This document shows positions 5,296 to 14,391 of a stretch of DNA of 32,167 nucleotides, one piece after another. This DNA is from Candidatus Omnitrophota bacterium (GTDB lineage: Bacteria; Omnitrophota; Gorgyraeia; 2-02-FULL-51-18): positions 1 to 32,167 of the forward strand of contig JAHFFN010000017.1 of assembly GCA_023247915.1 (NCBI GenBank), read 5' to 3'. Every line of letters begins with the position of its first letter. Within the stretch, counting starts at the first letter, position 1. The notes under the pieces are model-generated. The model made no database searches. It saw only the letters and a program-made list of their open reading frames with translations, and was not told the origin of the DNA. The position numbers were made by a program, and so were the translations under genes.

Positions 5296-5726
5296 TTTAT
5301 TTTACTCGCACGAATGAAAAAATTATTTCTTACTACTTCCAATCATTAGAGCTAGCGACGGGTGGCACCGGACGGGGCGCCCCGTGGGCGCGCAGTCCAT
5401 GAAATTTTTTTAAAAATGTTTAAAAAAATTTCTGCTTCTGGACGAGCACCCATGGGGCTGTCCGGTGACAGGATCCGTCGCCTGAACACGTGCTCGGAAT
5501 CGACGTGGCAAAGAAACTATTTTAGAATGAGGGCCCCGCCTGTGCCGTGCTGCCGCGCCGCTTTTGCTGAACCCTACTAGACAAGGGCGGGAACCAACCG
5601 GACGCCTTTAGGTCATCTTTTCTTGCGAAAAGCGACTCACCAGCGCCGCGAGATCAGCTCCCTGGTTTGATGAGTATTGGATCCGCAATTATTGGACGCT
5701 CATGATCCACGAGCACCGCAGGGAAA
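5296..5726. other. 431-bp gap without a convincing gene, compositionally patchy
   Basis: No frame here resembles a known protein over a useful length. The gap holds a GC-rich palindrome ACGGGGCGCCCCGT (5372-5385), a perfect AT-rich hairpin (5401-5432), and a second small hairpin CTGTC-CGGT-GACAG (5458-5471). On the minus strand a short stretch ending in TAA (about 5612-5687) reads NQGADLAALVSRFSQEK, which resembles the extreme C-terminus of some methyl-accepting chemotaxis proteins; it may be a gene remnant, with low confidence. I looked for landmarks of RNase P RNA, tmRNA, SRP RNA and 6S RNA on both strands and did not find them. It lies between broken rarA and the coiled-coil gene. Confidence 0.5.
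5366..5467. repeat. 102-nt imperfect foldback with a perfect 14-bp apical stem
   Basis: The outer arms CACCGGAC (5366-5373) and GTCCGGTG (5460-5467) are exact reverse complements. Inside them GCCCC (5379-5383) can pair with GGGGC (5454-5458), TGGG (5385-5388) with CCCA (5449-5452), and GTCCA (5395-5399) with TGGAC (5439-5443). The tip is a perfect 14-bp inverted repeat (5401-5414 with 5419-5432) around the loop AATG. The structure is therefore GC-rich at the base and purely AT-rich at the tip. No T-run follows on either strand as in an ordinary terminator. It could be a structured RNA, a miniature palindromic element or a recombination scar. Confidence 0.65.
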
Positions 5727-7337
5727 TTAAGCTTGTTTTGTTTTTTGCCGGTCATCAAAACTGGAAACTAAGGATTCCAGATACGATTCAAAATTAGATT
5801 TTAAATTTTGCATATCGGCGAGATTGGCCGCGAGATTGGCCTGTAATTCCGCGATCGTTTTTTGATATTTGGCTTCCTGACTCTTGACGGCCTGGTTGGC
5901 TTCATTCAGCTCCTTCACGCGCTCGTTCAATGTCGCGAGACTTTCTTCGCGCGCGCTGAGTTTCGCCTCTGTGGTTTTCAGCTGATTTTCCAATTTAGCA
6001 ATCGCCGCTCCTGATTCCGCGTGCGTTCTTTTTAAAACCGCGGCGGCTTTCTCAAGATCACTGATCCGTCCCAACGCTTGAACATAGTCCGCGTCGCGTC
6101 TCTTGTAACGGCTCTCGAGTCCCTTGTATTCATTGTTCATCGACTCTTTTTCTTTCAAGAAATCATCGCGATCGGCCGTGGCTTTTTGGACTTCTTCTTC
6201 CGCTAACTGCAGGCGTTTATTTTCCGCTTGAAGCGCGTTGTTGGAATCCGTGAGTTTCGCGATCTGATCTTCGTATTCATTCTTGGTTTCATCAAATGTT
6301 TTTTGCACTTCTTGTTTTTCCGATTCCAACATCACGATCTCGCCGCGCGCTTTATCCAGCGTCGATTGCAAATCGCTTTTGGAAGCGCGTTCTTTGACAA
6401 TGTCATTTTTAATCGAACGCATCACATCCATTTCGCTTTGAAGTTTTTTATTTTGAAGTGCGAGTGAATCGATTTTGGCCGTGGAGGCGTCCATGCTCAA
6501 CTGCATCTCTTCTTTTTCTTTCAAAAGATCTTTGTTGGCCGCTTGAGCTTCTTCTAACTGAGACGTCAAATAACTTCTGGCATCTTTAAATTCGCCATCG
6601 GACGCTTGAGCGCTTTGAAGCTTGGCTTGCAGCGTTTCGTTGCGGGATTTGAGCGCTTCAATCTGAATCACATATTCATTGGCGGAAAGATCCCGAGGTT
6701 CTTCCGGGGATACCGCACGGCTTTCCAGTTCTTTGACACGCGCTTGTAAAATCTGAACACGCTGATCGGCGTTTTGCTTTTCTAGACGTAATTTCTGGAC
6801 ATCCACCTCGGCTGTTCCCACCGCGGCGGGCTTGGGCTTGCTGATTTGGCTTTTGATCGCGCGGAGTTGAGACTCCAGGTCACGATTTCTGGCTTGCAAT
6901 CCCTGCAATTGATTAAAAGCCTCTTCTCTTTGTTGAGCCAAGGCCTCTTTTTCGGACTGGATAGAGGTTATCTGAGTATTTAAAACTTCTAACTTTGACT
7001 GTAACTCACTGCCATTAAAAGAATTAGGATTTTTAATAGTCGAAATTGGTGCCACTTCTACCGCAAATTGCTGTTTAGCCGTCTGAGACTTTAAGGTATC
7101 GATCTCCTTATAAGCTTCGTCGCGCTCTTTGGTCAGCGTGCGGACATGGTCTTTCCAAATTTCCAGAAGTTCTTGTCCCCGTTCAGGATCGGACGTTTGA
7201 GAGTTGTCCTGAGAACGCGACACGTCAACGGCCGGTTGGCCTGCCTGGAGTGTTTCCGCCTTTACAGAGGCACTGGGGCTCAAGGACAAACAAAAAAGCA
7301 CTAAAACGAAAATAAAAAATTTTCTCATATTTCTCAT
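5727..7337 (-). CDS. Secreted or periplasmic long coiled-coil protein, function unknown
   Basis: About 536 residues. It opens with a basic N-terminus and a hydrophobic signal (FFIFVLVLFCLSLS), with likely cleavage after SVKA. Almost all the rest is heptad-rich coiled coil dominated by Glu, Lys, Gln, Leu and Ala (for example LTSQLEEAQAANKDLLKEKE, SLATLNERVKELNEANQAVK), from about residue 45 to the end. I do not recognise a named family; similar repeats occur in SMC-like, tail-fibre-like and envelope scaffold proteins, so similarity searches will be dominated by composition. I place the start at ATG 7337, which has AAGGGAG about 10 nt upstream and puts the signal peptide at the N-terminus. An in-frame ATG at 7391 would add 18 residues and lacks a ribosome site. 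It lies downstream of the SemiSWEET gene, probably in the same transcript. A periplasmic structural role is inference. Confidence 0.75.
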   Translation of the reverse strand: MRNMRKFFIFVLVLFCLSLSPSASVKAETLQAGQPAVDVSRSQDNSQTSDPERGQELLEIWKDHVRTLTKERDEAYKEIDTLKSQTAKQQFAVEVAPISTIKNPNSFNGSELQSKLEVLNTQITSIQSEKEALAQQREEAFNQLQGLQARNRDLESQLRAIKSQISKPKPAAVGTAEVDVQKLRLEKQNADQRVQILQARVKELESRAVSPEEPRDLSANEYVIQIEALKSRNETLQAKLQSAQASDGEFKDARSYLTSQLEEAQAANKDLLKEKEEMQLSMDASTAKIDSLALQNKKLQSEMDVMRSIKNDIVKERASKSDLQSTLDKARGEIVMLESEKQEVQKTFDETKNEYEDQIAKLTDSNNALQAENKRLQLAEEEVQKATADRDDFLKEKESMNNEYKGLESRYKRRDADYVQALGRISDLEKAAAVLKRTHAESGAAIAKLENQLKTTEAKLSAREESLATLNERVKELNEANQAVKSQEAKYQKTIAELQANLAANLADMQNLKSNFESYLESLVSSFDDRQKTKQA

Positions 7338-13545: not shown

Positions 13546-13602
13546 TTAATTTTTAAAATTTAATTCCTAGTTTTAATAAAATATTTTAAGCGTTCAACGA
13601 TT

Positions 13603-13838
13603 TGGGTATGACAGGACTCGCCGCTTTTGCTTCGTAGCAGTCGCATCCTTCGACTACGTCTCAGGATGCTTCTACTCAACAAAAGTCGGGCAGTCGCCGC
13701 CTCGAAAGATGGCAATTGTTTCAAAACATGCCTTAACGACATGTTTTGAAACAATTGCTTTTATTGGCTCGGCGGCTCTTTTCGAGTCCTGTCATTACCC
13801 ACCACGCGGTGGTACTCGAAAAGTCCTTGCTATCAAAG
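13603..13838 (-). repeat. Foldback element 1, downstream of tRNA-Val, bounded by copies of the tRNA 3' end
   Basis: Reading away from the tRNA 3' end (minus strand), the element has four parts. First is a short hairpin. Second is an inverted copy of the tRNA 3' end (about 13780-13804: the complement of the T-arm, acceptor strand and CCA, with one inserted base). Third is a perfect 19-bp inverted repeat (13712-13730 with 13740-13758, 9-nt loop) and a smaller hairpin around GCATCCT/AGGATGC. Fourth, at the far end, is an 18-nt exact direct copy of the tRNA 3' end (13603-13620 equals 13842-13859). The direct copy begins at CGA of the T-loop. No protein is encoded. The element fills almost the whole gap between thrS and tRNA-Val. 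Confidence 0.75.
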
Positions 13839-13915
13839 TGGTGGGTATGACAGGACTCGAACCTGTGACCTTTTCCATGTCAAGGAAACGCTCTAACCAA
13901 CTGAGCTACACACCC
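13839..13915 (-). tRNA. tRNA-Val (anticodon GAC), CCA encoded
   Basis: Cloverleaf: acceptor GGGTGTG paired with CATACCC (one G-T pair), D-arm GCTCAGTTGGTTAGAGC, anticodon stem TTTCC/GGAAA with loop TTGACAT giving GAC, variable region AGGTC, T-arm ACAGG-TTCGAGT-CCTGT, discriminator A and an encoded CCA (complement at 13839-13841). It is the only one of the four tRNAs in this window with encoded CCA. The 3' half from the T-loop is repeated twice downstream, once inverted and once direct, as parts of foldback element 1. Confidence 0.95.
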
Positions 13916-13934: not shown

Positions 13935-14124
13935 AAAAACACTGGGCGAGGAGGGAGTCGGCGCCCTCCGCTTCATTCGTCCTGTCGACTCCGTCGCCAG
14001 GCGAATTCAGCTCCGGGTCGGCCACTCGCCGTCTCGATGGATGTCGATGCGCTTTTTGCGCATCGACCTTTATCCAGGGCTTCGACGGCTCACTTCGACT
14101 CCCTAGTTCCTCAACTAAAAACAC
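13935..14124 (-). repeat. Foldback element 2, downstream of tRNA-Leu, bounded by a 26-nt direct repeat of the tRNA 3' end
   Basis: A 26-nt sequence covering the tRNA-Leu 3' end plus 9 nt beyond it (14117-14142) recurs exactly at 13935-13960, 182 bp away. Just beyond the tRNA there is an inverted copy of its T-arm (GGGAGTCGAA, preceded by GAGGA). Then comes GAGCCGTCGAAGCC, closely matching GAGCCGCCGAGCC at the same place in element 1. Next is a perfect 10-bp hairpin GTCGATGCGC-TTTTT-GCGCATCGAC (14043-14067), and finally the direct copy, again beginning at CGA of the T-loop. The order of parts is the same as in element 1, so the two look like members of one family. Confidence 0.78.
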
Positions 14125-14207
14125 TGGGCGAGGAGGGAGTCGAACCCTCATGGGCCGAAGCCCAACAGATTTTAAGTCTGTCGTGTATGCCATTCCACCA
14201 CTCGCCC
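14125..14207 (-). tRNA. tRNA-Leu (anticodon TAA)
   Basis: Class II tRNA of 83 nt: acceptor GGGCGAG/CTCGCCC, anticodon stem ACAGA/TCTGT with loop CTTAAAA giving TAA, long variable arm TGGGC-TTCG-GCCCA, T-arm GAGGG-TTCGACT-CCCTC, discriminator A. CCA is not encoded (GTG follows). The gene reads UUA codons. Its 3' end is duplicated 182 bp downstream. Confidence 0.95.
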
Positions 14208-14261
14208 AGGCAAACTGTGTCCGCCGACGCGTTAGTGGCGGGCAAATGGTACCCGAAGCCT

Positions 14262-14391
14262 CTCGATTTTGATTTAAACGATCGAGATGCTAGGCGCGTG
14301 CAAGCGACCGCGGAGGCGTGCCGGAAGGCACGCCGCACAAGGGAGCGCAGACACGCAACGACGCAGATCGGTCGTTTAAATCAAAATCGAG
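14262..14391. repeat. Foldback element 3, downstream of tRNA-Cys, with 20-bp inverted repeat
   Basis: An exact 20-bp inverted repeat (14262-14281 with 14372-14391, core TCGATTTTGATTTAAACGA) encloses 90 nt. That interior contains the perfect hairpin GGCGTGCC-GGAA-GGCACGCC (14315-14334). The right arm includes the last two bases of the tRNA-Cys gene. Unlike elements 1 and 2 I find no copy of the T-arm, so it shares the position and nested-hairpin architecture but not the ends. The stretch 14208-14261 between tRNA-Leu and this repeat has no recognisable feature. Confidence 0.7.

Follow-up and report, generated by a model that had tools for sequence, protein, structure and literature searches.

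Short folded units with target-matching arms at tRNA 3' ends of Candidatus Omnitrophota, a probable family of non-autonomous mobile elements

Introduction

What duplicates the 3' end of a tRNA-Leu gene in a genome of Candidatus Omnitrophota, and leaves an inverted piece of the same tRNA and a hairpin between the two copies? The question arises at one locus of the window, the whole stretch of 32,167 nucleotides analyzed here (GenBank assembly GCA_023247915.1, contig JAHFFN010000017.1, termed C14; the genome has 1.65 Mb in 81 contigs). Tyrosine recombinases integrate islands, ICEs, and satellites at tRNA genes, with att sites in the T-loop and 3' end. The original prediction saw the hallmark of such integration in the repeat, and suggested a mini-element mobilised in trans or an RNA-processing module. 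On balance, we favor the reading that the unit is a member of an apparently undescribed family of short non-autonomous mobile elements at the tRNA 3' ends of Omnitrophota, which, we infer, spread by copy-and-paste.

Structure of the tRNA-Leu locus

The predicted 26-nt exact repeat, inverted T-arm copy (14097-14103), and 10-bp hairpin were all confirmed. The two copies of the repeat (13935-13960 and 14117-14142) are spaced by 182 nt; when the surrounding 1.2 kb was shuffled 200 times by mononucleotide, exact direct repeats reached at most 14 nt. tRNA-Leu(UAA), called by both ARAGORN and Rfam, occupies 14124-14208 on the minus strand, and the repeat extends from C56 of its T-loop to the tRNA 3' end and past it. 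On the tRNA strand, the order is the intact tRNA-Leu(UAA), a 20-nt trailer, GGGAGTC, the core GAAGTGAG...GGCGCC, and the second tRNA 3'-end copy, which starts at tRNA nt 57 and continues for 9 nt past the 3' end. The features, all on the minus strand, are as follows.

14124..14208 (-): target gene tRNA-Leu(UAA), intact (ARAGORN and Rfam)
14117..14142 (-): first copy of the direct repeat (X), from tRNA C56/G57 through the tRNA 3' end into the trailer
14104..14123 (-): trailer (T), which separates the inverted arm from the tRNA 3' end and is of local origin
14097..14103 (-): inverted arm, rc(x) = GGGAGTC, which reverse-complements nt 57-63 of tRNA-Leu and serves as the 5' strand of helix P1
13960..14096 (-): core (GAAGTGAG...GGCGCC), three-way junction of P1, P2, and P3
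about 14043..14067 (-): P2b, perfect 10-bp hairpin, variable in sequence between copies with pairing kept
13960..14023 (-): P3 domain, in which GGC-C-G-A-CCC pairs with GGGCGCC, plus a variable stem
13935..13960 (-): second copy of the direct repeat (X'), a duplicate of tRNA-Leu from nt 56/57 through the 3' end, with 9 nt beyond
13953-13959 (-): 3' strand of P1, the first 7 nt of X' after C56
13594..13861 (-): second family member, at tRNA-Val(GAC); covariance model match at 13613-13790
about 13594-13620 and 13833-13859 (-): direct repeat of the tRNA-Val(GAC) member, whose long inverted arm ends at about 13795

The functional unit is wider than the 10-bp hairpin; it is a three-way junction closed by P1, which the inverted copy forms with the downstream direct copy. 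The 151-nt strand of the Leu unit folds with -77.5 kcal/mol as RNA (z = -7.0 against shuffles) and with -46 kcal/mol as DNA (z = -7.4). The window also contains an otherwise ordinary 6S RNA (RF00013, 61 bits) at 5529-5727 (-).

Related copies in the genome and the phylum

A BLAST search with the unit gave matches on several contigs, and inspection of all 40 distinct tRNA 3' flanks placed the element 3' of about 14 of the 40 tRNA genes in its own genome. The layout was found at Val-GAC, Leu-UAA, Leu-UAG, Lys-CUU, Lys-UUU, Phe, Arg-UCU, His, Ser-GCU, Ser-CGA, Asp, and Trp, and remnants follow Gly-CCC and Ser-GGA. A covariance model (R1) built from seven copies called 12 copies in this genome. 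It also matched 30 of the 99 relatives and, in a sample drawn from the whole phylum, 78 of 384 genomes. The original prediction, which was to be given up if no other tRNA carried such a unit, therefore stands on this point. A same-strand tRNA lies at most 450 nt upstream of 171 of the 184 distinct copies, and 18 amino-acid identities are represented; copies without a detected tRNA are mostly at contig ends, second copies in tandem, or next to decayed tRNA 3' ends. Tandem copies were seen in 18 of the 150 units read, and no copy has protein-coding capacity.

A pattern scan of named genomes assigned the carriers to Candidatus Omnitrophota, and exact-pattern matches in other phyla mostly failed the covariance model. 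One contig labeled Bdellovibrionaceae (L276, JAHFAF010000004.1) gave a strong model match (83 bits). This short contig belongs to a MAG of the 'nzgw' metagenome set, which also yields Omnitrophota MAGs, and mis-binning is the likely reason, or else horizontal transfer. L293, another pattern match outside Omnitrophota labels, is also from a MAG.

The original prediction had no named family for this layout. Rfam gave no gathering-threshold match to the element in the window and only sub-threshold matches to other families in seven loci, and no description was found in the literature outside subscription journals and preprints.

Origin of the arms

The arms were compared with the upstream tRNA in the 170 copies with a located T-loop. 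Of these, 147 have an inverted arm that equals nt 57-63 of their own tRNA in reverse complement, as against 7.5% with randomly assigned tRNAs, and 144 have a direct copy that matches their own tRNA at 7/7 positions (7.3% with random assignment). R1 models the pairing of arm and copy and not their identity with the upstream tRNA, so this identity is not built into the search. By position, the inverted match is 0.94 at nt 63, 0.72 at nt 64, and about 0.4 by nt 68, with a mode of arm length at 7-8 nt, and the direct match stays near 0.88 as far as nt 73.

Near-identical cores are found with different arms. In G079, cores that are 99% identical follow Thr-UGU with GATTCCT and Arg-ACG with GAGTCCT. 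The Trp and Thr cores of G307 (98% identical) and the Lys and Leu cores of G007 (97% identical) likewise differ in their heptamers. When each core was paired with the nearest core of the same genome at a different tRNA, the heptamer was shared in 6 of 106 cases (5.3 expected). Inheritance of the arms with the core, in the manner of a fixed guide, is rejected by this chance-level sharing. Cores that are 95-99% identical and carry different arms, each matching its own tRNA, indicate that the arms are formed anew from the target rather than brought along with the core.

The trailers of near-identical core pairs in one genome are mostly unrelated as well. The trailer was therefore rejected as a part of the element and is treated as local outside genus g31, where trailers have a shared look. 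Taken together, heptamers and trailers indicate that core and arms differ in origin: what moves is the core, and the arms are written anew. The start of the duplication is fixed at C56|R57, and its other end is mostly the tRNA end and sometimes 20-46 nt beyond. Most single copies show a clear duplication over tRNA nt 57-73/76 and no further, which leaves the position of the second break uncertain. At Asp, Arg-UCU, and Ser-GCU the rest of the duplicated acceptor has decayed while P1 is retained, as selection for a P1 of at least 7 bp would explain.

Conserved fold

The core measures about 85-160 nt and forms a three-way junction in each copy. Its boundaries are GAA, the reverse complement of T54-T55-C56, and C56, i.e. 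the universal T-loop TTCRA. The helices derived from the seven own-genome copies are P1, in which the inverted arm of 7-10 nt (sometimes longer) pairs with the downstream direct copy; P2 with the perfect, sequence-variable hairpin P2b; and P3, composed of GGC-C-G-A-CCC/GGGCGCC and a variable stem. In these seven copies, 95% of the cells are paired and both sides have changed in 26 of 46 pairs, and no shuffle or register slide came near this pairing. In 126 further matches, which were aligned to the covariance model itself and are hence biased toward its structure, 93% are paired, and 124 sequences gave 935 double-changed cells against 262 in shuffled data; the covariation was reached in 0 of 500 shuffles. 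Outside the helices, a pair of junction positions shows tight coupling (MI 0.60 against a shuffle maximum of 0.07, uncorrected for kinship).

That the repeat arose by chance, or is ordinary diverging spacer, has a negligible probability. We found no point in its favor; 184 copies share one layout, the arm match exceeds its null more than 10-fold, and the covariation is beyond all shuffles. The explanation was rejected on these grounds, on the 14-nt shuffle maximum at the Leu locus, and on syntenic clusters that lack the Leu copy (below).

G-U pairs are scarce in P1 (2.0%), P2b (2.2%), and P3 (0.5-2%), and make up 4.9% in P2 and 5.6% in the tRNA stems of the same set. The scarcity in P1, P2b, and P3 hints at folded DNA or freshly copied arms.

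In a variant core, a branched GCGCGCCGC...GGCGCG(T/A)CAGGCGCGC domain replaces P2b. It was seen at Ser-GCU and Ser-CGA in G000 and at Ser, Gly, Glu, Leu, Gln, and Val in G010, and the replacement suggests a modular exchange of the P2 loop.

Occupied and empty sites

Among sister species, some sites are occupied and others empty, and tandem arrays and truncated remnants are seen as well. In genus g31, tRNA-Trp is occupied in G032 and empty in G206. At tRNA-Val, G360 is occupied and G087 empty, and G216/G206 form a second pair. The trailer CGATATTTTAAAAGGG follows tRNA-Val in one of G360 and G087 and the duplicated 3' end in the other. The syntenic Cys-Leu-Val cluster of G008, G004, and G360 has no element at Leu. 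Individual pairs are read here without a direction of gain or loss; the empty sites could be excision products, because some g31 trailers are common to different species.

The unit is accordingly not fixed, and the counter-case of a sequence fixed and diverging like spacer, named with the original prediction, fails. As far as genome comparison can tell, the proposal of a non-autonomous mini-element is well supported: near-identical copies in one genome sit at different tRNAs, sites are occupied or empty, tandems occur, and no protein is encoded.

The folded strand could instead be a cis-acting RNA of the host, a tRNA-trailer module for processing, termination, or switching that is kept by selection and spread by conversion. 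In the switch version, the tRNA 3' half and the downstream copy would be alternative pairing partners of the inverted arm. The strong compensatory changes, the coupled junction bases, the stable RNA fold, and the retention of P1 beside a decaying acceptor agree with such a role. We regard it as unlikely for a module that serves only about 14 of the 40 own tRNAs and 78 of the 384 phylum genomes, is patchy at orthologous tRNAs of sister species with inconsistent carrier tRNAs, forms tandem arrays and truncated remnants, and sometimes lies beyond a terminator-like hairpin. A role in RNA processing may be secondary to the mobile element.

Search for a motor

Candidate enzymes were sought above all in G079, which is 95% complete and has about 12 young copies. 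In the tyrosine-recombinase explanation, a circle of X, T, arm, and core would be integrated in trans at C56|R57, with X and X' as attL and attR and the tRNA 3' end restored. The unit does resemble such integration: it has attL/attR-like direct repeats that start in the T-loop at C56|R57 and cover the tRNA 3' end, tRNA function is preserved, gain and loss are precise between the repeats, and tandem arrays are present. However, it measures 85-160 nt, is gene-free, and has one core at 18 tRNA identities, and the att-like arms are remade for each target, the inverted 7-mer included. A constant element-borne attP matching one attB was not found; the equivalent of attP (X plus the inverted arm) would have to change with each tRNA while the cores remain 95-99% identical. 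No copy encodes an integrase in cis, and for an extra one in trans G079 offers only two PF00589 (Phage_integrase) genes, both of XerC/XerD-like size; PF00589 counts show no obvious tracking of element presence. The explanation is quite improbable, and the claim that the repeat is a hallmark of tyrosine-recombinase integration found no support in the form given, since the att-like sequence differs per tRNA around a constant core and G079 has only those two genes.

A single-stranded DNA element moved by an HUH/Y1 transposase, as in REPIN/RAYT systems, would fit the folded strand that is nearly free of G-U pairs in P1, P2b, and P3, and Y1 transposases occur in 76 of the 99 relatives. Against it stand the G-U rate of P2, near that of tRNA, and the lack of any PF01797 (Y1 transposase) match in G079 and G022, which have many and several copies, respectively. 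REPINs, moreover, are two short inverted palindromes (PMC3116915). We hold this explanation to be highly improbable.

Reverse transcriptase (PF00078, RVT_1) had no match in G000, G001, G002, G009, or G079, and among the 99 relatives it occurs in 7 of 30 with the element and 12 of 69 without. As an obligate motor, a reverse transcriptase, a Y1 transposase, or an extra tyrosine recombinase is thus unsupported by presence and absence. An autonomous version was also considered in the 2.2-kb stretch between two G079 copies and rejected, as the stretch holds a separate unit and not an enlarged copy. This separate unit (L162, G079:C1:287700-290700, about 471-2541) is about 2 kb long, has 37-nt terminal inverted repeats, and lies between two tandem tRNA-tail elements at tRNA-Arg(UCG). 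Its ORFs, read by eye, are Xre-like and RES-domain-like, possibly a toxin-antitoxin pair.

Discussion

Here, we propose that the element would be inserted at the tRNA 3' end by copy-and-paste. In the universal T-loop (TTCRA), one strand would be opened precisely at C56|R57, and the core would be copied onto the opened end from a template of RNA or single-stranded DNA. The new strand may then snap back and copy at least 7 nt of the target, which would write the inverted arm, and the direct duplication would result from another break, placed either at the tRNA 3' end or beyond it. The tRNA gene stays intact, which would make the insertion harmless, and the element could be lost by recombination between the duplicated tRNA ends. 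The template, the order of the steps, and the enzyme are presumed in this scheme, which starts from the observed anatomy, target-specific arms, and mobility pattern; we consider the copying and snap-back moderately likely. Arms remade for each tRNA around a conserved core would explain the spread over 18 tRNA identities without harm.

Tentatively, the family may represent a class of mobile nucleic acid that is new: an RNA or single-stranded DNA with a three-way junction, which invades tRNA genes at the universal T-loop and writes a target-matching helix by copying 7-10 nt in inverted orientation. Its kind would be new because the arms are remade from the target. With the same reserve, its motor might be an enzyme yet to be named or a ribozyme-like activity at C56|R57.

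The element resembles integrase elements in its direct repeat, REPINs in size and folding, and target-primed retroelements in its junctions, yet for each of them a defining feature was looked for and not found. To our knowledge, the attachment site or guide of site-specific elements is fixed, REPINs have no target-templated arms, and no target-primed retroelement has a three-way-junction core. Like the REPIN/RAYT palindromes (PMC3116915, PMC8266576), the Omnitrophota units are short, non-autonomous, folded, and form chromosomally dispersed families. Unlike REPINs, they are sited at tRNA 3' ends (171/184), have a three-way junction rather than paired REPs and target-copied arms, and are present in genomes without Y1 transposase. 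The REPIN/RAYT layout of two inverted REP palindromes with a conserved 5' tetranucleotide and extragenic dispersal was not found, nor was a cognate Y1/RAYT transposase in G079 and G022.

Target-primed retroelements include R2, LINEs and SINEs, and group II introns. They share with the element a strand-specific exact site, extra inverted sequence at the 5' junction, and possibly a duplication whose other end varies; most of the copy-rich Omnitrophota genomes, in contrast, lack reverse transcriptase, and the unit has no 3' tail and a fixed arm of about 7 nt or more. Integron attC sites are structure-conserved folded single-strand sites with a GTTRRRY crossover, a cassette ORF, and attI as the target. 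The Omnitrophota unit is likewise a folded strand of conserved structure with a variable terminal hairpin, but it has no cassette ORF and its target is a tRNA, not attI; GTTRRRY is absent at the junction, which is C|RA of the T-loop in the copies read.

Neither a known integrase nor a reverse transcriptase nor a Y1 transposase accounts for the element. The family is a marker of genome dynamics for Omnitrophota, a phylum with few cultured members, and its duplicated tRNA 3' ends may mislead the annotation of tRNAs and genomic islands.

Two further repeats were seen near tRNA genes. A second palindromic family, CATCTGCGnCGTTGC ... GCGCCTnGCATCTG with an inner hairpin, is found in the window at 14262-14391. 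In G000 it lies 3' of Gly-GCC, Leu-CAG, His, Ser-GCU, Met, and Gly-CCC; a pattern search gave nine places in this genome, not always adjoining tRNAs, and the repeat also occurs in the relatives G002, G010, and G012. It sits inside long inverted arms, which are probably invaded tRNA terminator hairpins. In genus g31, the repeat AATCCGnnnnnnnGCGGATTTGATCCTGA...GCGACTnAATAAGGAGC...GAAGGACC follows tRNA-Trp and tRNA-Tyr (L145, L146, L328), and its hairpin-loop motif GCGAC..GGAGC is common to 75 of the 184 element cores.
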